Origin: Arthrobacter sp. CAU 1506
GTDB taxonomy: Bacteria; Actinomycetota; Actinomycetes; Actinomycetales; Micrococcaceae
Assembly (NCBI RefSeq): GCF_005047635.1
Contig: NZ_SUKC01000008.1
Span: 62,001 to 126,000 of the forward strand
Reading direction: 5' to 3'
Length of the DNA: 64,000 bases
A program made the translations under genes and the position numbers. Under the pieces are notes generated by a model. That model did no database searches and was not told the DNA's origin. It worked only from the letters and a program-made list of their open reading frames with translations. This document shows positions 48,794 to 63,594 of this stretch, in pieces (position 1 is the stretch's first letter; the number at the start of each line of letters is the position of its first letter).

Positions 48794-49749
48794 GCGGTTC
48801 TCCGTGAAATTCGAGGGCTAAGCAGCGTTGCGCCGAGCACAACACCGACGATCAGCAGCAATCCGTAGGTGAATTCGATGAGGTTCGGTTGGACCCCGGC
48901 GGAAGTCAGCAGTTGCTGGAGGAGGTAGATGGCAAGCGCCCCAAAGAACGTCCCGAGCAGGCCGCCCCGTCCGCCGCCGAGACTGGTGCCGCCGAGAACT
49001 GCGGCTGCCAGGCCAAGGAGCGCATACGTGGTGGCAAGCGAGGATCCGGAGGCCTGTAACAGGGCCGACAGGGCAATCCCGGCGATGCCGGCGAACAAGC
49101 CGCCCAGCGTGTAGCCGAGCACCCGGATCGCGGTCACGTTCACGCCGGATCCGTAGGCTGAGGAGTCGCTCTCGCCGGTGGCGCGCAGGTTGCTGACAAA
49201 GACAGTCCTCTTCAACAAGAACCACACGAGTGCCGCGGCGCCCAGCGTGATGACCGCACCGGGTACGAGGCCGATGGAGCCTGCCAGCGGCCGAGTCCAG
49301 TTGTCCGGCGCGATGACGGGGTTCTTTGCGATGGTCAACGAGGCACCGATGAGCAGGAACAGTACGCCGGTGGTCGCCACCACTGGGTGCAGGCGGACGA
49401 CCGCCACAAGAATGCCGTTGATGGCGCCGACCGCCATCGCGATGGCAAGCAAGAGAGGGATTGCCAGCGGCCAATTACCCAGTCCGGCGGGGATCAGGAC
49501 GGCGACGAAAACGCAGTTGATCAGTGTGGCCAAGGGGCCCACGGAGATATCTATGCCTCCGGCCAGGATGGCCGGTGTGGATGCGAAGCCGACCAACACG
49601 AACGGTGCGAGGGTGGCCAGCGTGGTACCGATCCGGCCAGGGGAGACGAAGCTGGGAGAAACCATCAGGTTTATCAGCAACAGGACGGCGCAGAGCAGCA
49701 TCGCAAACGCGAATGGCCATCGTTGAAACATGCTCAGCACCCGGTTCAT
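48790..49749 (-). CDS. ABC transporter permease, RbsC-type, first permease
   Basis: The 319-aa protein shares the RbsC fold: FVLVGFASTPAILAGGIDISVGPLATLINCVFVAVLI and the IGASLTIAKNPVIAPDNW segment, and it ends in an LLSPRISRR tail. It overlaps the ATPase gene stop by 4 bp and the second permease gene start. Its hydrophobic helices match those of its neighbour in order. It belongs to the same import complex. Confidence 0.9.
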   Translation of the reverse strand: MNRVLSMFQRWPFAFAMLLCAVLLLINLMVSPSFVSPGRIGTTLATLAPFVLVGFASTPAILAGGIDISVGPLATLINCVFVAVLIPAGLGNWPLAIPLLLAIAMAVGAINGILVAVVRLHPVVATTGVLFLLIGASLTIAKNPVIAPDNWTRPLAGSIGLVPGAVITLGAAALVWFLLKRTVFVSNLRATGESDSSAYGSGVNVTAIRVLGYTLGGLFAGIAGIALSALLQASGSSLATTYALLGLAAAVLGGTSLGGGRGGLLGTFFGALAIYLLQQLLTSAGVQPNLIEFTYGLLLIVGVVLGATLLSPRISRRTA

Positions 49750-51251
49750 GCGACACCTGCGACTTTCTGCCCGAAATAGGCTGCGACGATAGCTTCATGG
49801 CCGATCTCGGCCCGCGCAATTTCCGCGAACAGGCTCTGGTTTCGGAAAACGAGGACGCGGTCCACAAGCTCCACGTGTTCTTCGACCTCGCTGGAGAGCA
49901 TGACCACACTCATTCCCTCCGCGCAGAGCTGTTGGAGGGCAGCGTAGATCTCACGTTTGGTGGTGATATCCACGCCCCGGGTCGGATCGTTCAACAAGAG
50001 CACCGCCGGGTCAGTTGCCAGCCACCGGGCCAGCAGTACCTTCTGTTGGTTCCCGCCGGACAGTGTTGAGATGGCGTCGGTGGCATTGCCGAATTTAATG
50101 CTCAGGCTCTTTGCGGCAGCGGCAAACCGTTCGGACATACGGTTGGAACTCAGCAGCGGTCCCCGGCCGTCTTTCTGCATGGTGGGAAGCGCGAAGTTTT
50201 CCCGGATGGACATCGGTTCAAACAGAGATTCTCCCCGACGCTCCCTGGGCAAGTAGGCGATGCCAGTTCTACCGGAGTCGGGGTGCCTCGTGCTTTCTCC
50301 GCCGGCCGGGACCTGAGCGACGACTCCGTCGCCGTCGATGAGTCCCGCCAGTCGCCTCAGGAACTGGTCTTGGCCATGTCCTTCAAGGCCCGCGAGGCCG
50401 ACGAGCTCGCCGCGGCGCAATGCGAAATCGATGGGTTCTGCTGCCGGGGCAAGCCGGATACCTTCCGCCGCAAGAACGGTGGGGCCGAGTTCGCGGTCCA
50501 GCGTTCCGTGTTCGACGACGTTGGAAGTCCCGGTCATATCAGAGATCAGCTGGCCAATAGACATGCTGGCGCGGTCCACGGTGGAGATGGTCCGCCCGGA
50601 GCGGAGCACAGTGACACGGTCAGAGATCTCCTCGACCTCGTCCATACGATGCGAGATGAAGAGGATAGCGCAACCCTCAGACTTAAGCCGCCGCATTTCC
50701 GCGAACAGGCGGTCACGCGTTTGCACATCCAGCGCCGCTGTCGACTCATCCAGAACGAGGACGCGAGGGTTGCGGACCAGCGCGCGGGCAATGCAAATGG
50801 CCTGCCGGTCTGAAAGGGAAAGGGCTCCGGCAGGAGAATCCAAATGAATGCCGTCGACCAGGCGGCCCAGCACTTCTGCGGCCGTCGCGCGTTGTTCCGC
50901 GCTGCTGCGGCGGCGCCGGAACATGCCGTCCGTTCCGAGCCAGATGTTCTCGAGAACTGATTGGCTGGCCGCGGTGAGCACTTCCTGGAAGACCGTTGCG
51001 ATCCCCGCGGCATTAGCCTGCCGGGGGGATCGGAAGACGAGGGCATCGCCGTCGAGCGTCAGGTCACCGTCATCCGGCCGGTGCACGCCGCCAATGATCT
51101 TGACCAGCGTGCTCTTACCCGAGCCGTTCTCTCCGAGGAGGGTGTGAACCTCGCCCGGTTTGACGTGCAGGTGGCCGTCGGCGAGAGCGATGGTTGCCCC
51201 AAAGCGTTTACGCAGCGCTGACAGGTGCAGACCTGTCGACCCTTCTTCCAT
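49746..51251 (-). CDS. Sugar-type ABC transporter ATP-binding protein (RbsA-like, two ATPase domains)
   Basis: The 501-aa protein has two ABC domains. The first has Walker A GENGSGKST, the signature LSLSDRQAICIARAL and Walker B LVLDESTAALD. The second has a degenerate loop GLEGHGQDQF, as is normal in this family, and signature LSGGNQQKVLLARWL with DPTRGVDI. The start at 51251 follows GAGGAGGAGTGAT. It drives the two permeases. The operon start lies in the divergent region with the binding protein gene, containing an operator of the TetR-type motif. Confidence 0.92.
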   Translation of the reverse strand: MEEGSTGLHLSALRKRFGATIALADGHLHVKPGEVHTLLGENGSGKSTLVKIIGGVHRPDDGDLTLDGDALVFRSPRQANAAGIATVFQEVLTAASQSVLENIWLGTDGMFRRRRSSAEQRATAAEVLGRLVDGIHLDSPAGALSLSDRQAICIARALVRNPRVLVLDESTAALDVQTRDRLFAEMRRLKSEGCAILFISHRMDEVEEISDRVTVLRSGRTISTVDRASMSIGQLISDMTGTSNVVEHGTLDRELGPTVLAAEGIRLAPAAEPIDFALRRGELVGLAGLEGHGQDQFLRRLAGLIDGDGVVAQVPAGGESTRHPDSGRTGIAYLPRERRGESLFEPMSIRENFALPTMQKDGRGPLLSSNRMSERFAAAAKSLSIKFGNATDAISTLSGGNQQKVLLARWLATDPAVLLLNDPTRGVDITTKREIYAALQQLCAEGMSVVMLSSEVEEHVELVDRVLVFRNQSLFAEIARAEIGHEAIVAAYFGQKVAGVA

Positions 51252-51297: not shown

Positions 51298-51314
51298 CTA
51301 GACGAAACGTATCG
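51298..51314. promoter_or_regulatory. TetR-type operator site 1 (divergent ABC/binding-protein promoter)
   Basis: The minus strand reads CGATACGTTTCGTCTAG, matching the consensus CGATACGTTTCGTATAG at 16 of 17 positions. It is placed between the ATPase gene (minus) and the binding-protein gene (plus), next to TAGTATT -10-like sequence for the minus-strand promoter. Confidence 0.6.
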
Positions 51315-51373
51315 CATCGGTCTACTGTTCTGTCAAAGGCGCATACGGCGCTGACTTAAGGAGGAGTGCAAAG

Positions 51374-52621
51374 ATGAAGAAGCGCACGAATGTAGGGCGC
51401 CCTGCCCTGATCGGGACGGCAGTTGTCACGCTGGCGGCTCTCGGACTCGCGGGGTGCTCCGCGGCTGGGTCACCAGATGCCGATCAGGTCGCTCAGCCGG
51501 CCGCTTCGGCGGCCGCGGGCCAGTGTGGCTCTGTACCGGACCTCGGAGCGAACGATCCGGACGGGCTGCTCAAGGAGTTCAGCCCCGAGACTGCGGCGGC
51601 CTACAACGCCTACCCGCTGCCGATCAAGAAGTCGGTCTGGGCCGACTGGAAGTCGGAGAAGGACGGGAAATACACGGCAGCCATCGTCGGCATGCCTCCG
51701 GCCAGTGCGTTCGTCAACGTCATGCTGGATACGGTCCGAAAAGAGCTGGCAGCCGCCGACGTCGAGATCGTCGCCGACCTTGCACCCGACGACCCCACCA
51801 ATGTGCCGTTGCAGTTGCAGCAGTTCAGCCAGGCTGTCGCTCTCAAACCGGACATCATCTTCTTCATTCCCTTGGCCGGCGAACCATCCGTCGACGCGGT
51901 GAAGGCCGCCGGTGAGGCAGGCATCCCCGTGGTCTCCATGCAGTCCATTGTCGACTCGGAGTATGCCGTATCCGTAACGGGCAACAGCGTGCTGCAGGCG
52001 ATGAATGTCGGCGCGGGCACCCTGAGCGCCATCGGTGGCAAGGGCAACGTACTTCGTGTTACCGGAATCCCGGGAATCTCGAATGAACTGTACGCAGAGG
52101 AGGGCTTCCAGAACGTGCTTGAGCTGTGCCCCGACGTGTCGGTAGCTGGTGAGGTGACCGGATTCTTCGAAGCGACCACCGCGCAGACTGCCACCTTGCA
52201 GTACCTCGCTACGAATCCAGCTGGTGTCGACGGCGTCCTGCAATCGGGCACTATGGGCCTCGGTGTTCTCAACGCGTTCCACGAGTCGGGACTTGAGGCA
52301 CCCCCTATTGCGGACATCGGCGCCACCCAGGGCTTCGCAAGCTGGGCTGCCCAGAATGCCGACTACCCCTACGTAGGGTCCACGACGCCAACGGTCAGGC
52401 AGTCGCAGGTAGCCGTGGATATCGGACTGCGCATCCTTAAGGGCGAGGGGCCGAAGATCAACCAGTTCGTCAACAACCCATTCGTTGTAGACCGGTCGAA
52501 CCTCAAGGATTTGGTAGATCCTGCGTGGAAGACGACGGATTCAATGGATCTGGCGGGCGACCCGGAGATGTTCTTCCCGGACGAAGTTCTCAAGGAGTAC
52601 TTCAACAACCCGAGCAGCTGA
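51374..52621 (+). CDS. ABC transporter substrate-binding lipoprotein (type 1 periplasmic-binding fold)
   Basis: The 415-aa protein has a lipoprotein signal (ALIGTAVVTLAALGLAGC, lipobox A-L-A-G-C at about residue 28) and a two-domain periplasmic binding protein 4/ribose-binding fold. Marks are YTAAIVGMPPASAFVNVMLDTV, DIIFFIPLAGEPSVDAVKAAGEAGIPVVSM, and VDGVLQSGTMGLGVLNAFHESGL. A perfect ribosome site AAGGAGG precedes the ATG. It captures the solute for the divergently encoded permeases; separation from the permease operon by a shared control region is notable. Confidence 0.93.
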   Translation: MKKRTNVGRPALIGTAVVTLAALGLAGCSAAGSPDADQVAQPAASAAAGQCGSVPDLGANDPDGLLKEFSPETAAAYNAYPLPIKKSVWADWKSEKDGKYTAAIVGMPPASAFVNVMLDTVRKELAAADVEIVADLAPDDPTNVPLQLQQFSQAVALKPDIIFFIPLAGEPSVDAVKAAGEAGIPVVSMQSIVDSEYAVSVTGNSVLQAMNVGAGTLSAIGGKGNVLRVTGIPGISNELYAEEGFQNVLELCPDVSVAGEVTGFFEATTAQTATLQYLATNPAGVDGVLQSGTMGLGVLNAFHESGLEAPPIADIGATQGFASWAAQNADYPYVGSTTPTVRQSQVAVDIGLRILKGEGPKINQFVNNPFVVDRSNLKDLVDPAWKTTDSMDLAGDPEMFFPDEVLKEYFNNPSS

Positions 52622-52724
52622 CGCGTTCCGGGTACGGCATAGCTAAGATGGCACCCAAGCTTGCAAGTCCGACGTCGAACTAGTTCCACGGCAAGGACGA
52701 CGAGACCTGCAGGCGGTCGCTCAT

Positions 52725-52759
52725 CTGATCGGCGTGCACCATTGGTGCACGCCGATCAG
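52725..52759 (+). terminator. Terminator of the binding-protein gene
   Basis: CTGATCGGCGTGCACC (52725-52740) pairs perfectly with GGTGCACGCCGATCAG (52744-52759), a 16-bp stem with loop ATT. Confidence 0.85.
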
Positions 52760-52840
52760 TAGTCATAGGAGACAGATGAAAATGGGCTGGTTGCGCAGCG
52801 ATGGGAAAGCTCAGCTCGTGATGTCGGCTGGGCTGGAGTG

Positions 52841-53794
52841 ATGGCGCCCGTGCTGGACACCCGATCGGTATCACCCTCGGACCGTCAGGATTACTGGTCG
52901 GAGGGGATCGCGCAGCATTTTTTCCCGATGCGCGTTGAGGCAGTGGGGGCCACCTCGTTTGAGGCCCGCTTGGCAGGCGGCGACATGGGGCCGGTGGCGG
53001 TCCGGTCTATCCAGGGCCTCCCGCACCGGGTGGCACGTACACAGCAAATGATCGCGGCCGCCGATCCGGAATGCATTCTGCTTTACCTGCTGACTAAAGG
53101 GTCGATTTTTATTGAGCAGGACGACCGGAGCTGCGTTCTTCGGCCGGGAGCGATCGCCTGGCAGGACACGTCGCGGCCCTCGACGTTCGAGGGCCGCGAC
53201 GGCTTCGAAGTGCTGGTGTTCAGCGTTCCGAAGTGGTTCATCGGGGCACGGGCTGATGGCATCGCCCGTCGCACCGCAACGGCGATCGGCGCAGGGGAGG
53301 GGCGGCTCACGCCCCTCGCAACGCCGTTTCTCGCGAGTCTCGCCCGGACCGTAGTCGACGGTGAGGGGTTGCCGAGCAGCGATGCCGAAGGGGCCGCCGA
53401 GATGTTGTTACCACTGCTGCGAAGTGGTGATGATCAGGAAGGAAAGCCCGAGGCAACACCGCGCTCCGAGATGCTCCTGATCCGAATGCAGCGGTATGCC
53501 ATGGAACATCTTCAGGACCCTGAACTGGGTCCGGAGCAAATTGCACGGGCCCACTACGTATCGACGCGATATGTGCACAAGCTCTTTGCCACATCGGGCG
53601 CAGGCGTCTCGGCTTGGATCCGGGAGCACCGGCTTGAAGGCGCCGCGGCCGAGCTGCGAAAGTCACCGGAAACACCGATTGCAGCTGTTTCGACGAGATG
53701 GGGCTACCAAAATCCTGCAAGCTTCAGCAGAGCGTTCCGAGAGAAGCACGGTTGCGCCCCACGGGATCTCAGGCTTCTTCCGCAACTGGGATGA
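52841..53794 (+). CDS. AraC-family transcriptional regulator
   Basis: The protein (317 aa from ATG 52841; GTG three bases earlier also possible) has an N-terminal AraC-binding-like domain (PF14525 type, QDYWSEGIAQHFFPMRVEAVGATSFEARLAGGDMG) and a C-terminal double HTH (residues about 220-315, RMQRYAMEHLQDPELGPEQIARAHYVSTRYVHKLFATSGAGVSAWIREHRLEGAAAELRKS, then RWGYQNPASFSRAFREKHG). It lies inside the catabolic cluster and may control the nearby oxidoreductase genes. Its effector is unknown. Confidence 0.9.
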   Translation: MAPVLDTRSVSPSDRQDYWSEGIAQHFFPMRVEAVGATSFEARLAGGDMGPVAVRSIQGLPHRVARTQQMIAAADPECILLYLLTKGSIFIEQDDRSCVLRPGAIAWQDTSRPSTFEGRDGFEVLVFSVPKWFIGARADGIARRTATAIGAGEGRLTPLATPFLASLARTVVDGEGLPSSDAEGAAEMLLPLLRSGDDQEGKPEATPRSEMLLIRMQRYAMEHLQDPELGPEQIARAHYVSTRYVHKLFATSGAGVSAWIREHRLEGAAAELRKSPETPIAAVSTRWGYQNPASFSRAFREKHGCAPRDLRLLPQLG

Positions 53795-53817
53795 CCCCGG
53801 CGTTAAGCCCTCCGTCC

Positions 53818-55005
53818 TCACCTGGCGACGTCTATAACGTCCAGATCCCGGCCAACGACCATACGTCCATCGAATCCCTTGGCGCATTCTGCCCAGACTG
53901 ATTCGGGCTGGACGACAGGAACGAGGTGGGAGAGCACAAGTGTGCCGACATTCGCCTCGGCCGCGATGGCTCCCACTTCTGTCTTCAAGGTGTGCGCCTG
54001 GATCAGATGACGGTACAGGCCCTCTTCTGCCTCGCTTCTAGGGGCGGGGAACAGTGCTGCCGCCCAGTCTTCGTCGATGACCTCGTGCACCAGCACGTCG
54101 GCGTCCTGGGCCAGCCGCACCATATTCGCGCATTTTGCCGTGTCGCCGGAGAACACGACGGACCCGTCGTCCGTATCAAACCGGTAGGCCAGAGCAGGGA
54201 ATACCGGAGCATGGTTCACCAAGGTAGCCGATACCTTGACACGATCATCTTCGAAGAAGGTAAATGGCTCCATATCCGGCGCTGGTGTGCCATTTGGATC
54301 CTTCAGGTACCTTTCGGGGACGGGAACATCCAGGGCTTCCCACAATTGGGATGGCGTTGGCTTTCGGTTGTCGAAGATGCGGTCGTTGAGGTCGGTCGCG
54401 AACATCTGCATCATGAGATCGGTCATCTCTTTGGTGCCAGGCGTCGGGTTACTCGGGTTGACGGGCTCAGGAGCCGGACCCTTGCCGAACAGCGGGGGAA
54501 GCGCCCCGCGGTTGCCGGGGCCCCAGACCGGGATCCGGCTGACACTTTGCAGGCCGTTATAGATCCCGTTGACCAGCACGTTGTTCAGGTCAACGACGTG
54601 GTCCGAATGCAGGTGGGTCAGGAAGACGCCGGCAAGGACGTCGAGTGGACCTTCCTGGGGCGATTTGTTCTCAGGTCCCAGATCGGCCTTGCGCAGTTGG
54701 GTAAGCACGCCGTGTCCCGCGTCGATCAGGTAGTAGCGGTCGCCGACAACCAAGGCGGAGGCGATGCCCGCGCTGTTATTGCCTGGAAAGTGGGTGGGCC
54801 CTCCGGCCGTGCCGAGCAGCACCAGCTTGGTCTTCGAACCGGAGGATGGCGGCGGCCCGAACTTGCGCTGGGGGGTCTCGGCCGTGCTGGCCTCACTCGG
54901 CGTGCAGGCTGTCAACGCGAGGCCGGCGGCACCGAGTCCGAGTCCCGCGATCAAACGGCGGCGTCCAAGGCCGGTCCGCATTTCGGCCGGTAGGTCAACA
55001 CACAT
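53818..55005 (-). CDS. Exported MBL-fold metallo-hydrolase (Tat lipoprotein signal)
   Basis: The protein (395 aa from ATG 55005, preceded by GAGGAATACTT) begins with GLGRRRLIAGLGLGAAGLALTAC: twin arginines, hydrophobic core and lipobox L-T-A-C (Cys about 34), so it is probably Tat-exported and lipid-anchored. The metallo-beta-lactamase motifs are TAGGPTHFPGN, DAGHGVLTQL, the zinc motif HLHSDHVVD, SGDTAKCANM and LSHLVP. It could be an arylsulfatase, lactonase or phosphodiesterase of the tRNase Z-like group. Extracellular or surface processing of the imported compound is a reasonable inference. Confidence 0.88.
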   Translation of the reverse strand: MCVDLPAEMRTGLGRRRLIAGLGLGAAGLALTACTPSEASTAETPQRKFGPPPSSGSKTKLVLLGTAGGPTHFPGNNSAGIASALVVGDRYYLIDAGHGVLTQLRKADLGPENKSPQEGPLDVLAGVFLTHLHSDHVVDLNNVLVNGIYNGLQSVSRIPVWGPGNRGALPPLFGKGPAPEPVNPSNPTPGTKEMTDLMMQMFATDLNDRIFDNRKPTPSQLWEALDVPVPERYLKDPNGTPAPDMEPFTFFEDDRVKVSATLVNHAPVFPALAYRFDTDDGSVVFSGDTAKCANMVRLAQDADVLVHEVIDEDWAAALFPAPRSEAEEGLYRHLIQAHTLKTEVGAIAAEANVGTLVLSHLVPVVQPESVWAECAKGFDGRMVVGRDLDVIDVAR

Positions 55006-55099
55006 AAGTATTCCTCGTGTTCTAGGAGTGAAGGCCGATCGCCAACCGCAGCCAAGCGCATCGCGTGGTTTCGCAGTGGAGGGAAGATGAGTCTGAGTC

Positions 55100-55141
55100 G
55101 TCAGGGAAGCCCGCGCCATTAAGAGGGCGGGCTTCCCTGAC
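55100..55141. terminator. Terminator of the FAD oxidoreductase gene
   Basis: GTCAGGGAAGCCCGC (55100-55114) pairs perfectly with GCGGGCTTCCCTGAC (55127-55141), 8 bp after the minus-strand stop codon. It may also insulate the downstream MBL gene. Confidence 0.85.
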
Positions 55142-55148
55142 TGCGCGA

Positions 55149-56759
55149 TCAGGCTTGCGGGTAGCCGGCCTGCCGGAGGCGGCTGCCCCAGATCCCGGAC
55201 TTGCCGGGAGCGATGATCCCGTTCGGGTCGAGCGTGTCCTTGATCGTCTCGTTGAAGCGACGCTGGGCGTGATCGTTGAAGCCGAACTGATCGGCCGCGA
55301 GGTCCATGAACGACAGGTGCGCGCGGTATTCGCCGTAACCGCGTTTGCCGGCCTCGGCGACCATGCGCTTCGCGATGGTGTAGGCCTTATCGACCTGCTC
55401 CGGGTTCTTCGTGTCGAACGGAATCACGTTGATGAACGTGGTTGCCCGCGCGTTGATCGGCAGCATGCCGCCGAGGAAGTCCAGCCCGGCCTCGGCGCAC
55501 ATTTCAGACATCAGCTTCTGCGCGGCCTGCGCGTGCTGGGACGTCAGCGGGATCACCGGCGAGAAGTCGACGTGGCCGCCTTCCTCGCCCCCGGACCAGC
55601 CGGCCATCTTGTACAGATCCTGGCTCGGCACGCCGATCTGCACCCGCTCGTGCGGATTCGGCAGCGTCTCCCACGCATCGGCGCCGTGCTTCTCACCTGA
55701 GATATCGACGCCCGGAATCTGCAGGAAACGCGCCTTGAGCTTCGCGAAGTTGTGGTCCACGACCGCCTCGTCGCCATAGAGCGCGAAGCGCATCATCCAA
55801 CGGCCAATGCCGAGCTCCTTGGCGATCTTCTCGATGACCTCCTCGGGCATCGGCCCGTCGCCGTCGTACCATTCGGCGCGGGTCGAGAGCATCGAGGCGA
55901 TGCACAGCGTATTCGACAGCTGCGGTCGCATGTCGATGGTGCCGGCAAGCATGAGCTCGCGCAGCGCATCGACGACGGCGGGCAGCTGCGAGTCGTCCCA
56001 CAGGCGCAGCCAGAGCGGCATGTAGATTTCCGGCTTCGGCATGAGCCAGTAGCCCATCTTCGTGACGATGCCGTAGTTCGACTGCATGAACATTTCGGTA
56101 GAGGTGGGGCCGAGGCCACGCTTATACAGCGGCCAGGTCGGGTTATTGTCCATTGCGCCCGACCCGGTGCGCAGCAGGTCACCGTCGGGGAGCACGACCT
56201 CGAACCCGCAGTGCGAGGCCTGGTCGATCGAGTAGGGCATGTAGGTGAGCCCATGCTCAAGGGTGTTGGAGACGACGCCTCCCCAGCCGATGTCGACGAT
56301 GGAGGCGACGAGGTCGTGTCCGCCGGCCTTGATCGCGTCATGCAGGTCGTACCAGCTCACGCCGGGCTCGACCATCGCGTAGCCGAGTTCCTCGTTAATC
56401 TCCACGCCGGTCATCTCCCGGAACGAGACCATCACGGAGCCTCGCACCTGGGGTGCGGCACCGCCGTAGCCGTTGTTCTTGCCCCGGCCGATGGGCCACA
56501 ACGGAACCTTGTACTCATTGGCGATCCGCACCACTGCCTGGACGTCCTCGACGCTCGTCGGGCTGACGACGGCGGAGGGAACGTTGGTGGCGGTGCCCGG
56601 AACCTGGAAGGGATCCTGGAAGTCCTCCAGCGACGCGGCGTCGGTGGCGACCTTGTCCGCGCCGATCGCCGTGGCGAACGCGGTGAGCGCCTTTTCGAGT
56701 TCGGCCTCAGAGACTCCGGGTGGGGTCGGTAGCGTCGACGTTTCGGTGGTGCTGCTCAT
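55149..56759 (-). CDS. FAD-binding oxidoreductase, 4-cresol dehydrogenase/vanillyl-alcohol oxidase family
   Basis: The 536-aa protein has the PCMH/VAO FAD-binding domain (VPLWPIGRGKNNGYGGAAPQVRGSVMVSF, the P-loop-like G-x-N-N-G-Y-G motif, and ELGYAMVEPGVSWYDLHDAI) and a C-terminal FAD-oxidase cap. The family oxidises para-substituted phenols such as p-cresol, vanillyl alcohol or eugenol. The start was set at the third of three clustered ATG codons (56759) because AAAGGAG lies 9 bp upstream; the first two have no spacing. Covalent flavin residues cannot be assigned by eye. It is divergent from the SDR gene. Confidence 0.9.
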   Translation of the reverse strand: MSSTTETSTLPTPPGVSEAELEKALTAFATAIGADKVATDAASLEDFQDPFQVPGTATNVPSAVVSPTSVEDVQAVVRIANEYKVPLWPIGRGKNNGYGGAAPQVRGSVMVSFREMTGVEINEELGYAMVEPGVSWYDLHDAIKAGGHDLVASIVDIGWGGVVSNTLEHGLTYMPYSIDQASHCGFEVVLPDGDLLRTGSGAMDNNPTWPLYKRGLGPTSTEMFMQSNYGIVTKMGYWLMPKPEIYMPLWLRLWDDSQLPAVVDALRELMLAGTIDMRPQLSNTLCIASMLSTRAEWYDGDGPMPEEVIEKIAKELGIGRWMMRFALYGDEAVVDHNFAKLKARFLQIPGVDISGEKHGADAWETLPNPHERVQIGVPSQDLYKMAGWSGGEEGGHVDFSPVIPLTSQHAQAAQKLMSEMCAEAGLDFLGGMLPINARATTFINVIPFDTKNPEQVDKAYTIAKRMVAEAGKRGYGEYRAHLSFMDLAADQFGFNDHAQRRFNETIKDTLDPNGIIAPGKSGIWGSRLRQAGYPQA

Positions 56760-56848
56760 CGTCATCATCTCCTTTGATGCAGTGAATGTGGGTGGTGCGT
56801 GCTGTCCATGGTGCGCCACCTCACATCTGCGTAGGGGTCCACGGGCGC

Positions 56849-56892
56849 CATGGTGCAGTCCGTGCACAGAAGTGTGCGCGGACTGCACCATG
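56849..56892. promoter_or_regulatory. 44-bp inverted repeat in the divergent VAO/SDR promoter region
   Basis: CATGGTGCAGTCCG (56849-56862) and CGGACTGCACCATG (56879-56892) are perfectly complementary 14-bp arms, and the 16 bp between them contains GCACAGAAGTGTGC, an inner palindrome. It has the size of an operator for a dimer or tetramer, or could form a cruciform. It is not related to the CGATACGTTTCGTATAG motif. Confidence 0.55.
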
Positions 56893-56971
56893 CAACCGAT
56901 CGGGTACCGGCCCGTATCGGTGCGTGGTTGCGTGGGGTGAGGTACTACGACGAGATGAACGGAGAAGATCC

Positions 56972-57748
56972 ATGGCTGCTGGCCGCTTGGAAGGAAAAGT
57001 TGTCCTGCTGACGGGCATCGGAGGTGGGATGGGCCGTGTGACAGCGCGGCTGTTCGCGGCCGAGGGCGCGGTGGTGGTCGGAAGCGACCTCAATCCTGAC
57101 AGTGCAGCTGAGACGGCCCGTCTGGTAGCGGCCGACGGCGGATCGATCGAGTCAAGCGCGCCGGTGGACCTGAGCGACCGGGCCGAGATCGATCGCTGGG
57201 TTGCCGACACTGCGGCACGCCACGGCCGCATCGACGTCCTCTACAACAACGCCAGCCTGCCGCGATTCGCGCCGTTTGCCCAGATGAGCGCTGATGACTA
57301 CCAGTTCACCATCCAGAACGAACTGGACCTGGTGTGGCACGCCTGCCAGGCAGCATGGCCGCATCTGGAAGCAGCCCGCGGCGCGATCGTTAACATCGGC
57401 TCGGGAGCCGGAACCCAGGGCGCACGAGCTCTGCCGCAGGCCGCCCATGCCGCCGCCAAGGGGGCGGTCATCGCCCTCACCCGACAACTGGCGGCAGAAG
57501 GAGTCGCGGCCGGCATCCGCGTCAACTGCTTGAGCCCGGGAGTCATGGCGACGCCGCCTGTGCTCGCCATGTTCGACGAGTTCGGCGAGGATGCACCTGT
57601 CGCTCCGATCATTGAGCGCACTATCGATGGCAAGCCGGGAGACCCGCTTGCGGTCGCCTATGCGGGCCTGTATCTCGCCTCCGACGAGGCGAAGTGGGTC
57701 ACTGGGATCAATCTTGTCGTCGATGGCGGAGCCAGCGCGATCATGTAG
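56972..57748 (+). CDS. Short-chain dehydrogenase/reductase with His in place of catalytic Tyr
   Basis: The 258-aa SDR has the cofactor motif TGIGGGMG (14-21), acidic Asp39 after strand 2, the YNNAS motif (91-95), the catalytic Ser144 and Lys163. The catalytic tetrad Tyr, normally four residues before Lys, is His159 (codon CAT; Tyr would be TAT). Members without Tyr are often inactive or use another acid. The ATG at 56972 follows GGAGAAGATCC. The SDR is divergent from the FAD oxidoreductase gene and shares its promoter region. Confidence 0.88.
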   Translation: MAAGRLEGKVVLLTGIGGGMGRVTARLFAAEGAVVVGSDLNPDSAAETARLVAADGGSIESSAPVDLSDRAEIDRWVADTAARHGRIDVLYNNASLPRFAPFAQMSADDYQFTIQNELDLVWHACQAAWPHLEAARGAIVNIGSGAGTQGARALPQAAHAAAKGAVIALTRQLAAEGVAAGIRVNCLSPGVMATPPVLAMFDEFGEDAPVAPIIERTIDGKPGDPLAVAYAGLYLASDEAKWVTGINLVVDGGASAIM

Positions 57749-57773
57749 GCCGGCGAAAACTCCCACAGAACCA

Positions 57774-57816
57774 CGACGACGGCGGTGCTCGCATAGGCGA
57801 GCCCGCCGTCGACGTC
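57774..57816 (+). terminator. Terminator of the SDR gene
   Basis: CGACGGCGGTGCTCGC (57777-57792) pairs with GCGAGCCCGCCGTCG (57797-57811) around ATAG, with one mismatch or bulge. A member of the ACGACGGCGGTG family. Confidence 0.8.
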
Positions 57817-57829
57817 TTAACCGTTAGGG

Positions 57830-57877
57830 GATGGGTGCATTCAGGTTTCCCAGCAAGGGAGCCTGAATGCACCCATC
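57830..57877 (-). terminator. Terminator of the OYE gene
   Basis: GATGGGTGCATTCAGG (57830-57845) and CCTGAATGCACCCATC (57862-57877) are perfectly complementary, with a CCC/GGG inner pair, 8 bp from the minus-strand stop. Two back-to-back terminators separate the convergent genes. Confidence 0.85.
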
Positions 57878-57884
57878 TCAATCG

Positions 57885-59204
57885 TCAGTTCTTGGATGCC
57901 TTCGATTTTGAGCTCGCCAGCTTATCTGCGATGCCCATGAGGGTCGGTGATCCTGTGGCGGCGATCAGGGCGGCCTCCACCGGGCGCTTGAGCTTGACCG
58001 AGACGGGTTCCTTCGCCCCTCCGAGAACCGCTTCGCGTCCCATGGCCGGGTTCTTGTGGCAGCGGACGGGCACGTTGAAGATCAAACGGCGCAGGCACGA
58101 GTTGTCATGGTCGCACCAGACGATCTCCTCGAGCTTGCCCTGGAGCACCTTGTTGGGGAATTCGGGATCGGCCAGCAGTTGCCGGGCGAGCATGATGCCG
58201 TCCGCGTGGCCATTGGCGATCGCGTCGGCGCTCTGCTGCGGATCGTAGGTGCTGCTCAGGAGCAGCGAAATGTTCGGCATCGCGGCACGGAACGCCTGCG
58301 GCTCGCCGTGCTCCAGCATCGCCCCCGATGACGAAGAGACATTGGCATCCATCGACTCATAGTTCCCGTCGGTGAGCGCGATATACCCCAACCCCGCCTT
58401 CGCGACGATGGTAGCGATCTCCGCGAACTCCTCCGGACCCTGCCCGTCGGGCAGGTGGTCGTTCACACTCATCCGAAGACCTACCGGGTAGTCGGGGCCG
58501 ACCTCGGCCCGGATTGCGCGCACCGTGTCGGTGAGGATGCGGGCACGGTTCTCGGCGCTCCCGCCGTATTCGTCGGTTCGCCAGTTGGTCCGCGGCGAGA
58601 GGAAGGAGGAGTAGAGGTAGCGCATGTGGGCACCGAGTTCGATGCCGTCGAAGCCGGCGGCCTTCGCGCGCCGGACAGCGGCGACCGTCTGTTCCTGGAC
58701 CTTCAGGATGTCTTCCTTGGTGATCTCGGCGGGAGTCGGGTTCGTGCGCCCGCCGGGGATGTAGAACCCGTGCGGGAGGCGGGGCGCGCCCATGTGGACG
58801 GGTTTCGGGCTCGCCGCCAGCGTGGGCCGTCCTTCACCCGGCACGCCCATGGCCCCGAAGCTCGGAAAGATCTGGGCAAAGATCGGCACGTCGTGCGCGT
58901 GCACGGCATCAACCATGCGCTTGAGCCCCGGGATGAAATCGTCCCGGTCGAACCGCATCAGCGGCTGGAACGGTGCCTCTTGGTTCCCTCGTTCGGTGGC
59001 GACGCCGCCGCCGATGATCAGCAGCCCCGCGCCGCCGCGGGCACGAGTGGTGAGGAAGGCGATGGTTTGGTCGCTCGGATGCCCGTCCTTCGTGGGCTGC
59101 AGCACGGCCATCGGGCTGAGCACGAAGCGGTTCTTGATCGTGAGGCCGTCGATCTTCCAGGGGCTCGAGAGCACCTCGGCAACGGTGGTGGCTTCTGGGG
59201 ACAT
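57885..59204 (-). CDS. NADH:flavin oxidoreductase, old yellow enzyme family
   Basis: The 439-aa protein has an OYE-type FMN barrel: IKNRFVLSPMAVLQPTKDGHP, GAGLLIIGGGVAT, the FDGIELGAHMRYLYSSFLSPRTN substrate loop with GG-S-AENRARI, and GLGYIALTDGNYESM. Towards the C-terminus is Cys364-x5-Cys370-x11-Cys382, resembling a reduced 2,4-dienoyl-CoA reductase iron-sulfur motif, but the expected second Cys of CxxC is missing. No C-terminal FAD/NAD domain is present. It likely reduces an enone or enoyl intermediate; it forms an operon with the upstream MFS gene. Confidence 0.85.
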   Translation of the reverse strand: MSPEATTVAEVLSSPWKIDGLTIKNRFVLSPMAVLQPTKDGHPSDQTIAFLTTRARGGAGLLIIGGGVATERGNQEAPFQPLMRFDRDDFIPGLKRMVDAVHAHDVPIFAQIFPSFGAMGVPGEGRPTLAASPKPVHMGAPRLPHGFYIPGGRTNPTPAEITKEDILKVQEQTVAAVRRAKAAGFDGIELGAHMRYLYSSFLSPRTNWRTDEYGGSAENRARILTDTVRAIRAEVGPDYPVGLRMSVNDHLPDGQGPEEFAEIATIVAKAGLGYIALTDGNYESMDANVSSSSGAMLEHGEPQAFRAAMPNISLLLSSTYDPQQSADAIANGHADGIMLARQLLADPEFPNKVLQGKLEEIVWCDHDNSCLRRLIFNVPVRCHKNPAMGREAVLGGAKEPVSVKLKRPVEAALIAATGSPTLMGIADKLASSKSKASKN

Positions 59205-59273
59205 TCTTTTTCTCCTTGGTCATCGTCAACAGTAGAGGGAGGGGGATCCGCGGGTTCACGGATCCCGGGGAAA

Positions 59274-60716
59274 TTACGAAGGCGTGTGGTGTCCGTTGGA
59301 GTTCGCTAGTTGCTGATCGAGCGGGATCGCCGGCGGTTGCGGGACCCCGTCACGCAGGCCCTCGATGGAGTCAGTGCCTTGCTTGCCGGCTTCGAGGCGA
59401 AGACCGCCCAAGGTCAATATCAAGGCGCCGACCGGAAGCAGGAGAGCGAGGAACAGGCCGGATAAGCCCAGTCCTGCTCCGATGAGCGCGCCGCCGGCGA
59501 CGCCGCCCGCTGCGGTGCCTACACGGGCTGCCAGGTTGGCCGTCCCAAGACCGGTGCCACGTGCATGGGCAGGATACGCGACTGCGGACAAGACGTCTCG
59601 GCTGGGGCCAAACCCTGTTGGCAGGATGAACCCGAGGACGGTGAAGATCACCAGGAGCGTGGCAAATTCCCGCAGGGGGAACAACCCAACGATGAGAAGT
59701 CCGACCAAGGAGGACAAGAGCACCAGAGAGATGACCGCGTACCTGGAAAACTTCTTCAGGAGAGCGCCGAGGATGAAGGTACCGACGACGCTCGCTGCGC
59801 CATAGCTGCCGACGATGGCGCTGCTTTGCACCGTGCTGAGGCCTGGGACCGGAGCCTGGAGCAACGTGGGCAGGTACTGCGCAATCAACAACTGCGTACC
59901 TAGCGCAATGAATGAGAAGACCCATAGCAGCACCGTGGTGACAGCGAAAGGGCGCGAGAGGATGAGTCGGAAGGCCCCGGAGTCAGCCTTCGACTGGCCC
60001 AACGGTGCAATGTCCACCATTGACAAGTCACGCCCTGGCGCGAGCCGGGCCAGCGCCCTTCTGGCCTTGTCGATCTCATTGCGGGATGCCAGGAGTATCG
60101 GCGATTCCGGCGTGATGACGGCAAAGGCAAAGGCGATCATGAGCGGGATGACGCCAGCGGCCACCATCAGTGGCCGCCAGCCACCCGAGGGAATGATGAT
60201 ACCGGCTAGCAGGGCGCCCGCTGTGGTTCCGAGGCCGACTCCCGCGTAGGCGAAGGCAAGCATCTGTGCGCGTCGTGCTGCTGGTACTAGATCGGCCAAG
60301 AGCGTGAGGGCGAGCGGCATGACTGCTCCAAGACCGAGGCAAGCCACGAATCGCCAGAGAACGAACATCTCGAAGTCCGACGCTGTGCCGCCGAGAATGG
60401 TGGCCACGCCCACGAGTAAGAGGGCAGCGGTCGTGACGCTCTTGCGTCCCCAGCGGTCGGCTAGTCTGCCGGCCACAATGGCGCCCAGGCCCATCGCAAC
60501 GAATCCGCCGGTCACCACGAAAGCAATCCCGCCGATCGGGGTCCCCCATTCCTTGACCAGCGAGGGGAAGATATGGCTCACGATGGTGATGTCCATGCCA
60601 TCAGCGAGCAGGGTCAGAAACAGCACCGTGAAGATCAGCCATTGACGCCAGCCGACGCCAACACTATCGATGAATCCCTGCACGTTTTGTCGTGCGGCTC
60701 CGCCTGGAGTCTTCAT
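59274..60716 (-). CDS. MFS transporter, aromatic acid:H+ symporter (AAHS) type
   Basis: The 480-aa protein has twelve membrane segments with the AAHS markers: LLADGMDITIVSHIFPSL (helix 1, the DGxD motif) and GAIVAGRLADRWGRKSV between helices 2 and 3. PcaK and BenK are archetypes that import benzoate, 4-hydroxybenzoate or related acids. The C-terminal 40 residues are hydrophilic. Two TetR-type sites lie 200-380 bp upstream. The OYE gene follows after 69 bp and is likely in the same unit. Confidence 0.87.
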   Translation of the reverse strand: MKTPGGAARQNVQGFIDSVGVGWRQWLIFTVLFLTLLADGMDITIVSHIFPSLVKEWGTPIGGIAFVVTGGFVAMGLGAIVAGRLADRWGRKSVTTAALLLVGVATILGGTASDFEMFVLWRFVACLGLGAVMPLALTLLADLVPAARRAQMLAFAYAGVGLGTTAGALLAGIIIPSGGWRPLMVAAGVIPLMIAFAFAVITPESPILLASRNEIDKARRALARLAPGRDLSMVDIAPLGQSKADSGAFRLILSRPFAVTTVLLWVFSFIALGTQLLIAQYLPTLLQAPVPGLSTVQSSAIVGSYGAASVVGTFILGALLKKFSRYAVISLVLLSSLVGLLIVGLFPLREFATLLVIFTVLGFILPTGFGPSRDVLSAVAYPAHARGTGLGTANLAARVGTAAGGVAGGALIGAGLGLSGLFLALLLPVGALILTLGGLRLEAGKQGTDSIEGLRDGVPQPPAIPLDQQLANSNGHHTPS

Positions 60717-60924
60717 GCCTAGGACCGAACCTCTCTGTTCCGTTTGGTTGCAAGGAGCACTGCGCCTTCACCTCTAGAGCCAGGACCAAGGTGCCCCCAG
60801 TGCGTGGGCGATTTCCTGTGTGCTTGCCTCCAGCGGAGCAGTAAAGTGACGCCGGGTGGTGTCCTCGCTGCCCCCCGATCAACCGCTTGTCATGGGCAAG
60901 GAAAGGCCATGATGCCGTTCGGTG

Positions 60925-60941
60925 CAGGACGTATCGTATTG
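60925..60941. promoter_or_regulatory. TetR-type operator site 2 (MFS promoter side)
   Basis: CAGGACGTATCGTATTG matches the consensus CGATACGTTTCGTATAG at 12 of 17 positions, including the ACGxxTCGTAT core. Confidence 0.45.
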
Positions 60942-61074
60942 GTTAGAGTACTAGGGCAGCTGCTTGTGATCAAGGGCACGTCGTTGCGTGACGGATCTGC
61001 GGTCGCGGAGTCTGGTGTCGGGCAGCGGCATGGACGGCGGCACCCATTTGCCCACTTAATCGCCAGAGACGATG

Positions 61075-61091
61075 GTGAACGTTTCGTATAG
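61075..61091. promoter_or_regulatory. TetR-type operator site 3 (tetR promoter)
   Basis: GTGAACGTTTCGTATAG matches the consensus at 13 of 17 positions and lies 28 bp before the tetR ATG, where it would block transcription. Another GACGTTTC half-site follows directly. Confidence 0.55.
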
Positions 61092-61118
61092 GACGTTTCA
61101 GCCCGTAAAGTGAGCCTT

Positions 61119-61694
61119 ATGGCGGTACGAAGCGAACAAAGTCACAAGGCAATTCTCGAGGCGACCATGGGGTTGCTGGACGAGTCGGGGCCTGCTGCGC
61201 TCACTGTTCAGAAGCTCTCCATCGAGCGCATCGCGCGCGAAGCCGGCGTGAGCAAGACGACGATCTACCGCTGGTGGCCGAGCAAAGCCGCCGTTGTCAT
61301 CGACACTTTTCTGGAGAACCATGTCGCGCGCACTCCGGTTCGTGAAGATGTGCCTGCAATCGACGCCCTGCGGGAGCATCTCTCCTCGCTTGCAGTGATT
61401 TATGCAGGTCCGGAGGGGCGGCTCATTTCCCAACTTGTCGCGGAAGCGCAGTATGACTCGGCGACAATGGAAGAATTCAAGAACCGTTTCTGGCTTCCCC
61501 GTACACGCGCCGTGACGGCGATAGTGCGAAGGGCAATGGAAGAAGGGGCGATCCGTTCCGACCTGGAGCCAATGCTTGTGACGGAGCTGCTCTACTCCCC
61601 GGTGTACTTCCGCCTCCTCTTCCAGTCCGGTCCTCTAGACGCGGATGCGGCAAATGCCATCATGCAGGCGGCTCTCGAGGGGCTCGCGGTTTAG
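61119..61694 (+). CDS. TetR-family transcriptional regulator
   Basis: The protein (191 aa from ATG 61119; an in-frame GTG at 61110 is an alternative) has the TetR HTH at the N-terminus (residues about 10-60: SHKAILEATMGLLDESGPAALTVQKLSIERIAREAGVSKTTIYRWWPSKAAVV) and a TetR_C ligand domain (PEGRLISQLVAEAQYDSATMEEFKNRFW, the YcdC/TetR_C_11 type). It probably represses its own gene, the MFS-OYE pair, the thiolase operon and the ABC importer through the four motif copies. The inducer could be a CoA ester or an aromatic acid. Confidence 0.92.
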   Translation: MAVRSEQSHKAILEATMGLLDESGPAALTVQKLSIERIAREAGVSKTTIYRWWPSKAAVVIDTFLENHVARTPVREDVPAIDALREHLSSLAVIYAGPEGRLISQLVAEAQYDSATMEEFKNRFWLPRTRAVTAIVRRAMEEGAIRSDLEPMLVTELLYSPVYFRLLFQSGPLDADAANAIMQAALEGLAV

Positions 61695-61775
61695 CGGTAG
61701 GCCGTCCACGTGGGCTCTGGGCTTTAGGAGCGGGTCCTAAATCGCGTTACGCAGCCCCATTCATCGTTGTACATC

Positions 61776-61792
61776 CGATACGGTTCGTATAG
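61776..61792 (+). promoter_or_regulatory. TetR-type operator site 4 (thiolase promoter)
   Basis: CGATACGGTTCGTATAG matches the consensus at 16 of 17 positions; its centre TACG-GTT-CGTA is a perfect palindrome. It overlaps a TATAGT -10-like hexamer (61788-61793), so binding would exclude RNA polymerase. The gap to the thiolase GTG is about 168 bp, without other structure seen. Confidence 0.65.
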
Positions 61793-61960
61793 TATTGCGT
61801 CTCAGATGCTCGTCAGCTTCCTCTGCGTTGCGAGGACTCGCCGTACCAAGGTGGCGCCGTTGCTCGCCATGTTCCTAGAGCCTCCTGCCTGAGCTGGTTC
61901 TATCCCTCAGACTTGGACGGATCGACGAAGCATACGCTTCTCCCGAAAGGATGCTTCCTC

Positions 61961-63181
61961 GTGAACCCTGTCATCGGCCCTCACGACGCCGTCGTCGTCG
62001 CCTACCGCAGAACGCCCATCGGACGTGCCCGCAAGGGATCGTTCGCGGGGGAGCGGCCCGAGGATCTCGCACTGGCTGCCGTTACAGGAGTCCTTGATGC
62101 GACACCGCAACTCGACCCCACGGAATTGGCCGACGCGTATGTGGGCTGCGCGGTTCCCGAAGGGGCGCAGGGGGACAACATCGGCCGGCGGGTCATGGTC
62201 ATGGCTGGGATGGACCATCTTCCCGCCGTCACGGTCAACCGCTTCTGCGCCTCGTCCCTGCAGGCGACGGCGATGGCGGCACAGGCTGTGCGCGCCGGGG
62301 ACGGCGAGGCCTTCCTGGTCGCCGGTGTTGAGCACACGTCCTCGACGCCGCCGGTGACGACTTCTCCCTATCCGGGTTTTGCGGCTGCGGGGAACCGCGC
62401 CGGTGAACTCTTCGAATCCGGGGCGGAATGGTCAGACCCACGCAACCGCGGCGAGCTGCCGGACATCTACATCGACATGGGCAAAACCGCCGAGTTCGTT
62501 GCGCGATCCACGGGCACCACCCGCCGGGACCAGGATGAATGGGCGCTTGAGTCACAGCTCCGGGCCGCGCGAGCCATCGAGGCCGGCTACTTTGCCCGGG
62601 AAATCGTGCCGGTCACCACTGCCGACGGCAGGGTGGTGACGGCCGACGACGGCCCGCGCCCCGCAACAACCATGGACGGACTGTCCGGGCTTCAGCCGGT
62701 CTTCCACGCCTCGGGTACCGTCACCGCAGGCAACGCCAGCCCGCTAAATGACGGTGCCTCCGCCCTCATCGTCATGAGCGCCCGCCGGGCCAAGGAATTG
62801 GGGATCACCCCGCTGGCCCGCATTCTGGGGAGCACGGCCAGCGGGCTATCCCCGGAGATCATGGGGCTGGGCCCGGTGGGGGCCTCGCAACGGCTCTTGG
62901 CACGACTCGGTTTGTCGATTGACGACATCGACGTCGTGGAATTGAATGAGGCATTCGCCGCCCAGGTCGTGCCTGTTGTCCGCCAGCTCAAGGCGGACCC
63001 GGCGAAGGTGAACCCGTTCGGCGGGGCGATCGCGCTCGGCCATCCCTTCGGCGCTACAGGGGCCCGGCTTGTTGGCACGCTCATCAATGGCTTGCAGAGC
63101 AAGGACGCCACGCTGGGACTGGCCACGCTCTGCGTCGGCGGGGGCCAAGGCATGGCCATGGCCATCGAGCGCCTGTCATGA
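61961..63181 (+). CDS. Thiolase (acetyl-CoA acyltransferase)
   Basis: The 406-aa protein has the thiolase active site: nucleophile Cys96 in NRFCASSLQA, GMGKTAEF-like MGKTAEFVAR, the His of ALGHPFGATGARLV, and the second Cys in LCVGGGQGMAM. The degradative class is indicated by the N-terminal PHDAVVVAYRRTPIGRARKGSF. The GTG at 61961 is preceded by CGAAAGGATGC. It cleaves 3-oxoacyl-CoA in side-chain beta-oxidation. The PaaI gene overlaps its stop (ATGA). No acyl-CoA dehydrogenase or ligase gene is in the window. Confidence 0.92.
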   Translation: MNPVIGPHDAVVVAYRRTPIGRARKGSFAGERPEDLALAAVTGVLDATPQLDPTELADAYVGCAVPEGAQGDNIGRRVMVMAGMDHLPAVTVNRFCASSLQATAMAAQAVRAGDGEAFLVAGVEHTSSTPPVTTSPYPGFAAAGNRAGELFESGAEWSDPRNRGELPDIYIDMGKTAEFVARSTGTTRRDQDEWALESQLRAARAIEAGYFAREIVPVTTADGRVVTADDGPRPATTMDGLSGLQPVFHASGTVTAGNASPLNDGASALIVMSARRAKELGITPLARILGSTASGLSPEIMGLGPVGASQRLLARLGLSIDDIDVVELNEAFAAQVVPVVRQLKADPAKVNPFGGAIALGHPFGATGARLVGTLINGLQSKDATLGLATLCVGGGQGMAMAIERLS

Positions 63182-63594
63182 GCACGGTGATGACTATTGA
63201 CGATCCGGCGCGCTCCATGCTGAAAGCAGACCGGAGCCTGGACCGGCTGGGCGTGATTGTGGAAGGCGCCAGCGGCGGCCGCTCGGTCGCAGTTCTCGAA
63301 GTCGAACCGTTGATGGCCAATGGGCATGGCATTGCCCATGGTGGCTTCGTTTTCAGTGTTGCCGATACTGCCTTCGCGATGGCAGCGAACACGCTGGGCC
63401 CCAGCATTGCGACGGCGGACGCATCCATCACCTACCTGTCTCCTGCGCACGTCGGCGAGCGATTGGTTGCCGAGGCCGAGGTTACTTTCAATGAATCGCG
63501 GCGGGTCATCGTGGACGTCATCGTACGCGCCGGAGACCGCACGGTGGCCATCTACCGCGGAACCGGCCGCGCACTCCGGGCACCTGCCGGCTAG
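63178..63594 (+). CDS. PaaI-family thioesterase (hotdog)
   Basis: The 138-aa protein has the PaaI hotdog: ANGHGIAHGGFVFSVADTAFAMAAN, with catalytic Asp in VADTAFA and the G-x-x-H-G-G-x-x-x-x-x-A-D motif. PaaI acts on hydroxyphenylacetyl-CoA in the phenylacetate pathway, releasing free acid when CoA is trapped. The start codon overlaps the thiolase stop by 4 bp (ATGA). It is plausibly a rescue enzyme for stalled CoA intermediates of the same route. Confidence 0.92.
   Translation: MSTVMTIDDPARSMLKADRSLDRLGVIVEGASGGRSVAVLEVEPLMANGHGIAHGGFVFSVADTAFAMAANTLGPSIATADASITYLSPAHVGERLVAEAEVTFNESRRVIVDVIVRAGDRTVAIYRGTGRALRAPAG

Follow-up and report, generated by a model that had tools for sequence, protein, structure and literature searches.

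A group of TetR-type repressors comprising QacR, CgmR, SlmA, Ms6564 and CprB is listed in the available part of PMC4150764 as binding DNA as a dimer of dimers, on published operators of 22–32 bp. Among enzymes, the bisphenol F oxidase BpfA is a relative of an oxidase considered below, and the available part of its description (PMC12507022) contains neither the term 'gene cluster' nor the term 'TetR'. Here, a 64,000-nucleotide stretch of Arthrobacter sp. CAU 1506 (contig NZ_SUKC01000008.1, positions 62,001 to 126,000; hereafter the window) was analysed, which carries a catabolic island, four copies of a near-palindromic element (S1 to S4) and, encoded among these, a TetR-family regulator of 191 amino acids (aa). 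The four sites are very likely the operators of this regulator, which would be an autoregulated repressor that is released by a pathway compound, so that the island is switched on together. The sites are present, conserved and specific, and they co-occur with the TetR. No description of the present cluster or TetR regulon was found in the available portions of the literature on TetR-controlled oxidase clusters (including PMC12507022, PMC12909556 and PMC11148156), a literature search on the motif letters did not find the operator code described, and the term TetR_C_11 was absent from the literature among the matches listed.

Results

Four candidate operators and a TetR-family protein

The original prediction comprised four 17-bp near-palindromes in intergenic promoter regions, and all four 17-mers exist at their predicted positions and strands, outside the gene calls used. 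S1 (51298–51317, plus strand) lies between the divergent operon of an ATP-binding cassette (ABC) ATPase and the gene of a substrate-binding protein (SBP); S2 (60925–60944, plus) between the gene pair for a major facilitator superfamily (MFS) transporter and an old yellow enzyme (OYE) and tetR; S3 (61075–61094, plus) is centred approximately 36 bp 5' of the tetR start; and S4 (61773–61792, minus) lies between tetR and the thiolase gene, 5' of the thiolase–thioesterase pair. The core TACG-NNN-CGTA, previously thought common to all four, is exact in S4 (61776) only, while the other three sites carry one mismatch each, and the part that all four share is ACG-N3-CGT. The palindrome was confirmed, but the conserved element is longer than 17 bp, at approximately 20 bp with a third half-site. 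In its longest open reading frame (ORF), the ABC ATPase gene would begin at 51317 and take in S1; however, read from an ATG at 51251, with GAGGAGGAG just 5' of it, the protein has 501 aa and aligns with the family profiles almost from their first positions, and S1 was therefore taken as intergenic.

The regulator (61119–61694, plus; 191 aa from the ATG, or 194 aa from a GTG at 61110) contains a TetR_N and a TetR_C_11 domain, its N-terminal helix-turn-helix matching PF00440 at 42.5 bits (cut-off 24) and its C-terminal domain PF16859 at 80.1 bits (cut-off 32). An AlphaFold2 model (mean pLDDT 91.7) has 2fq4 as its best fold match in the PDB (TM-score 0.82, 36% identity), and the 191-aa protein thus combines the domains with the predicted fold of the TetR family. 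Of the PDB matches whose titles name a DNA complex, Ms6564-DNA ranks highest. The best 80 of 353 TetR relatives were retrieved from named genomes, and 21 of their loci (L005–L025, 59–92% identity) are referred to as close loci, L005 (genome G005) being that of Arthrobacter hankyongi, from the same genus. A counterpart of S1 lies 67–72 bp 5' of the SBP gene in seven other loci and 113 bp 5' in L016, and a counterpart of S2 was found in L005 between the OYE gene and tetR, with no MFS gene called between them there. The palindromic candidate operator that adjoins tetR itself (S3) is kept in most close relatives, with counterparts at about the same distance from tetR in L005, L006, L008–L010, L012, L014, L021 and L024.

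A third half-site

A scoring matrix was trained on 60 sites from 18 close loci; the window, L005 and the near-duplicates L007 (of L006) and L022 (of L021) were kept out, the near-duplicates also being dropped from the site list. Site candidates were discarded if they lay inside genes (with a 30-bp margin), had no target gene within 450 bp or overlapped another register within 6 bp. The consensus of the training sites is CTATACG-NNN-CGTAT-CG-N-AT, in which the final segment CGNAT constitutes a third half-site directly 3' of the second. The three terminal bases of this segment were not part of the 17-mer by which sites were chosen; at least two of them were matched on at least one side in 59 of the 70 sites, whereas 12 other offsets gave between 7 and 40 of 70, with the 40 found at the next 5-bp register. 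In a de novo count of exact dyads across 201 intergenic pieces of the 18 loci, ATACG-N3-CGTAT (8 pieces versus 0.10 expected) and GATAC-N10-GTATC (8 versus 0.00) ranked jointly first, and ATACG-N8-CGTAT occurred in 7 pieces (0.00 expected), while the maxima across 20 shuffles were 3–5 pieces, the largest being 5. The N8 and N10 dyads fit an arrangement with an extra half-site.

Because of the 5-bp register of the half-sites and the match to Ms6564-DNA, binding of two overlapping TetR dimers per element is suggested. Alternatively, a single TetR dimer might occupy 17 bp, or TetR might activate, instead of two overlapping dimers repressing. TetR-family proteins are not all repressors, and in S2, S3 and several tetR-proximal sites the third half-site opens with TG or AG and not with CG. 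This alternative is nevertheless unlikely in view of the third half-site found in the 5-bp register in most sites, and of the fact that the best-ranked DNA-complex match is itself one of the dimer-of-dimers binders named in the available part of PMC4150764.

Genes preceded by the sites

The 21 close loci contain much of the same gene set in varying order, although not every locus has every gene, and L011 and L025 share few gene families. Sites scoring at least 16 within 350 bp upstream were counted in the window and L005–L025, inclusive of training loci and near-duplicates, with shared intergenic regions credited to both genes. Where a gene was the first of its operon, a site preceded it in 10/10 cases for the SBP, 8/10 for the ATPase, 9/11 for the thiolase, 10/12 for FAH1, 7/9 for the OYE and 10/13 for tetR. 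The corresponding counts were 3/3 for the FAD monooxygenase, 4/8 each for the MFS transporter and araC, 2/4 for the MBL gene and 1/2 each for OCD and ALDH; no site preceded the SDR (0/8), perm1 (0/3), FAH2 (0/2) or cupin gene (0/1), and the FAD oxidase had one in 1/12 cases (L012, in an intergenic region shared with FAH1). Operon-internal genes were preceded by a site in 5/6 cases for tetR and in 0/61 for all other families.

Of the families that had been predicted to follow the sites (ABC/SBP, MFS–OYE, tetR and thiolase–thioesterase), ATPase/SBP, OYE, tetR and thiolase are also preceded by them in most rearranged loci. This comparison supports the proposal that a single repressor may tie uptake, reduction and thiolysis together, including the ABC operon 10 kb away, and very probably one repressor controls uptake and breakdown by the island jointly. 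On the basis of these counts, the promoters of import, reduction and thiolysis are linked and that of the oxidase and SDR is not, and the latter pair is, as judged from this distribution, not directly in the TetR regulon.

Distant relatives and the AraC-family regulator

Within the genus, this TetR was found in 3 of 10 genomes (the present one included), and sites (E-value ≤1) occur in the same three, all of them in the cluster. Within the family, where stricter filters and E ≤0.1 were applied, 7 of 197 genomes encode the TetR, and sites were detected in four of these seven and in none of the 190 without it. A further 59 loci (L026–L084), from cyanobacteria, alphaproteobacteria and others, encode TetR relatives of 32–48% identity, except for the truncated L042 (54%). 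Only 4 of the 59 contain matches over half the length to any of the 22 island proteins besides TetR and three flanking proteins, at 29–51% identity. Sampled neighbours of the distant tetR genes were varied, and included SDR, zinc alcohol dehydrogenase, HlyD-type and RimK-type proteins, among others.

The matrix was applied to the tetR upstream regions of 57 of these 59 loci, 22 of which score at least 14. The reversed matrix gave 0/57 and the highest-scoring of 40 shuffles per region 3/57; 43 of the 57 regions beat all 40 of their shuffles. Furthermore, a matrix-free dyad count over 50 distant loci (49 once near-identical upstream regions had been dropped) returned TACG-N3-CGTA as the top dyad, in 20/49 regions versus 0.03 expected. 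The octamer KTTIYRWW is invariant in an alignment of 40 TetR proteins; it served as a search pattern for relatives, and its invariance in the distant loci is probably by construction. As judged from the upstream regions, many proteins with this shared recognition helix share the operator and several do not.

Since many distant tetR genes, with different genes around them, retain the site in their upstream regions, TetR is most likely the reader of the sites, and it is very unlikely that the AraC-family regulator of the cluster reads them instead. Of the 22 sequences in the comparison (window included), 10 do have an araC of one family, but L011, L013, L018, L020 and L025 have sites and lack an araC relative in the stretch retrieved, and the 59 distant loci yielded no AraC relative at the threshold used. 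A different element would also seem to suit AraC better. Between the oxidase and SDR genes, GTGCAGTNCGNGCAC occurs twice (56853–56888), in inverted orientation and at a spacing of 21 bp, and whether this position is strictly intergenic depends on the choice of start codon. Pairs at this spacing recur in inverted orientation, as in the window, in L005, L006, L007, L009, L010 and L091, and in direct orientation in L016 and L023, while L012 and L015 have a single copy only. The genome holds four exact GTGCAGTNCGNGCAC matches, the window containing the sole pair, and isolated copies that carry one mismatch are frequent, with 21 further cases. The neighbouring AraC probably reads the GTGCAGTNCGNGCAC pair at the oxidase/SDR region. 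As araC has a TetR-type site of its own in four of the eight loci where it is operon-first, and in the window follows the SBP gene, a cascade from TetR through AraC to the oxidase is proposed, in which araC would be under TetR control and AraC would then drive the oxidase and SDR genes through the GTGCAGTNCGNGCAC element.

Specificity and further sites

Under the matrix trained without the window, the four highest-scoring places in its 64 kb are S4 (31.5, the best of both window and genome), S1 (28.4), S2 (20.8) and S3 (17.9), and the next-best non-overlapping place scores 10.4. Matches of at least 17.5 occurred at a mean of 0.03 in 100 shuffled windows, the best reaching 19.4, and S1, S2 and S4 lie above every shuffled window, while S3 does not. 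The whole-genome scan that had been suggested as a check, conducted with a sequence-only model at E ≤10 and with 150 of 396 first-look candidates scored, yielded six matches at five places, all within one 21-kb stretch (C43:113298–133960), namely S1 and S4 plus three sites located beyond the end of the window. Across the genome, an S1-like 17-mer with up to one mismatch matches only S1 and S4, and a pattern built on S2 and S3 finds, when one mismatch is tolerated, these two sites and no other place in 4.24 Mb. Neither the whole-genome scan nor the S2/S3 pattern returned many equally good matches at unrelated places, the outcome named beforehand as contradicting the prediction. Two other search patterns were rejected: the loose core TACG-N3-CGTA at up to one mismatch was uninformative in the window (14 matches versus 8.2 expected, with 8 of 100 shuffles reaching 14), and the S1-like 17-mer, once three mismatches were allowed, was useless genome-wide, its 176 matches falling below those of a reversed control (545). 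That the four matches are chance near-palindromes is exceedingly improbable, since this explanation, favoured by the non-significant loose-core count and by S3 alone not exceeding the best shuffled window, is already contradicted by the independent matrix, the whole-genome scans and the conservation across genera and phyla, S3 being backed by its conserved place 5' of tetR.

The three further candidate operators, supported by matrix score and genome scan, are located at C43:127882, 129386 and 133939, i.e. 1.9, 3.4 and 7.9 kb past the window end (L088 3882–9960, equivalent to 65882–71960 in window numbering). The first lies between divergent OCD–DHDPS and ALDH genes, the second 5' of genes for an FAD monooxygenase, an extradiol dioxygenase, a FAH-family and an NMT1-like protein, and the third 5' of genes for a FAH-family protein, a cupin and an acetoacetate:CoA ligase. 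The predicted regulon therefore extends past the window end, a part of it that the original prediction did not see. The ligase and the monooxygenase exceed curated cut-offs (705 versus 521 for TIGR01217 and 430 versus 390 for NF004829, respectively), while the names extradiol dioxygenase and FAH reflect similarities under cut-off. The end of the monooxygenase operon (L088 8968–9813) encodes a 281-aa NMT1-like protein of substrate-binding type.

The island and its proposed pathway

Within the window, the importer consists of the ATPase (49746–51251, minus), which is nearest to the CUT2 sugar types AraG, YtfR and RbsA though under their curated cut-offs, two permeases of type BPD_transp_2 (48790–49749 and 47768–48793, both minus) and the SBP (51374–52621, plus; Peripla_BP_4, CUT2-like). 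The AraC-family regulator (52838–53794, plus) begins 216 bp 3' of the SBP gene and lacks a TetR operator of its own here. The 439-aa OYE-family flavin oxidoreductase (57885–59204, minus) is accompanied by the MFS transporter (59274–60716, minus), the nearest relatives of which are aromatic acid:H+ symporters, again under the curated cut-off. S4 is followed by the thiolase (61913–63181, plus) and the 4HBT-superfamily thioesterase (63178–63594, plus). The vanillyl-alcohol/eugenol-oxidase-type FAD oxidase (55149–56768, minus; longest ORF start 56891) and the divergent SDR dehydrogenase (56972–57748, plus; longest ORF start 56786) are both without a TetR operator. The oxidase contains an FAD_binding_4 domain and is similar over its full length to 8s7q (E 8e-133) and to the eugenol oxidase 5fxd (E 3e-120), a similarity that places it in the 4-phenol oxidase (VAO/PCMH) family. 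Elsewhere in the window, positions 26706–28187 hold a gene of family F15 (approximately 490 aa), a family that also occurs near the TetR of L010, L011 and L015.

The FAD oxidase, the aromatic-acid-symporter-like MFS transporter, the ring-hydroxylating-type monooxygenase, the extradiol-type dioxygenase, the two FAH-family hydrolases, the acetoacetate:CoA ligase and the thiolase together point to a phenol pathway, and the island is a probable phenol-degradation island. In outline, the gene content suggests that a para-substituted phenol is degraded via meta-cleavage and that the pathway ends in acetoacetate. Riboflavin-to-acetoacetate catabolism, as described in the available part of PMC12746152, was set aside as an analogue, no P450, Rieske or xanthine-oxidase gene being present among the genes profiled.

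Discussion

From the above, we infer that TetR binds the sites, represses through two overlapping dimers and is relieved by a pathway compound. Without inducer, TetR would occupy an element of approximately 20 bp, ATACG-N3-CGTAT with the directly following third half-site CGNAT, two overlapping dimers being accommodated on each. It would do so at the promoters of the ABC importer and SBP, the MFS–OYE pair, tetR and the thiolase–thioesterase pair, and additionally at the three promoters past the window end (OCD–DHDPS/ALDH, FAD monooxygenase–extradiol dioxygenase–FAH and FAH–cupin–acetoacetate:CoA ligase). A pathway compound would then free TetR, leading to joint induction of the island.

Several observations weigh against this reading. 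S2 and S3 are weaker and fall under the cut of the whole-genome scan, and among the close loci L011 and L023 lack a good match in front of tetR (scores of 4.0 and 5.8). Scans for sigma-70-like promoters found no pair of at least 9/12 at the sites, so an overlap of operator and promoter is not established. The training sites were chosen with a palindrome derived from the window, so that the agreement of their two main halves is in part a product of selection; neither the third half-site nor the two de novo dyad counts (close loci and distant tetR upstream regions) carry this bias. Among the four family genomes with TetR and site, G157 corresponds to the training locus L010 and G058 to L007, the near-duplicate of training locus L006, so that only G000 and G009 are independent, and three of the seven family genomes with the TetR have no site at the E ≤0.1 cut. 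In the distant loci, 14 of the 57 upstream regions do not beat their own shuffles, and L043, L053, L059, L061 and L063 score below zero. Additionally, the loci are related, many of the distant ones being cyanobacterial kin, and the counts are not independent events.

A wider proposal is that TetR proteins of the KTTIYRWW subfamily retain a single operator code, TACG-N3-CGTA with further half-sites at 5-bp intervals, in actinobacteria, cyanobacteria and alphaproteobacteria alike and regardless of the genes controlled, and that the subfamily is here connected to an undescribed para-substituted phenol pathway that leads to acetoacetate and whose first oxidation is gated by a cascade from TetR to AraC; in our estimation this proposal could equally well hold or fail. 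The operator code does appear transferable to distant TetR relatives. For the catabolic island, the analysis provides a putative operator, a candidate repressor and a predicted regulon that covers seven or more promoter regions, and the candidate operator opens a route to the inducer and, via the inducer, to the substrate by means of a simple reporter.

The proposed system is strongly supported and of an ordinary kind. The best sequence and fold matches of the regulator are the Bacillus cereus protein 2fq4 (E 3e-34) and Streptomyces coelicolor SCO0332 (2zb9), whose entry names mention neither an operator nor a ligand or regulon for comparison. Known here from its sequence, the FAD oxidase of the island resembles over its full length the 4-phenol oxidases, i.e. 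vanillyl-alcohol, eugenol and 4-ethylphenol oxidases and p-cresol methylhydroxylase. With the dimer-of-dimers TetR proteins, the present system shares the TetR fold, here predicted, and overlapping operator half-sites, Ms6564 ranking near the top of the solved structures in both sequence and fold similarity. The conserved element of approximately 20 bp compares with the larger operators given for that group in the available part of PMC4150764, two dimers per site being a prediction from sequence here. In contrast to that group, the half-sites in the window repeat every 5 bp, and the predicted regulon is a catabolic island.

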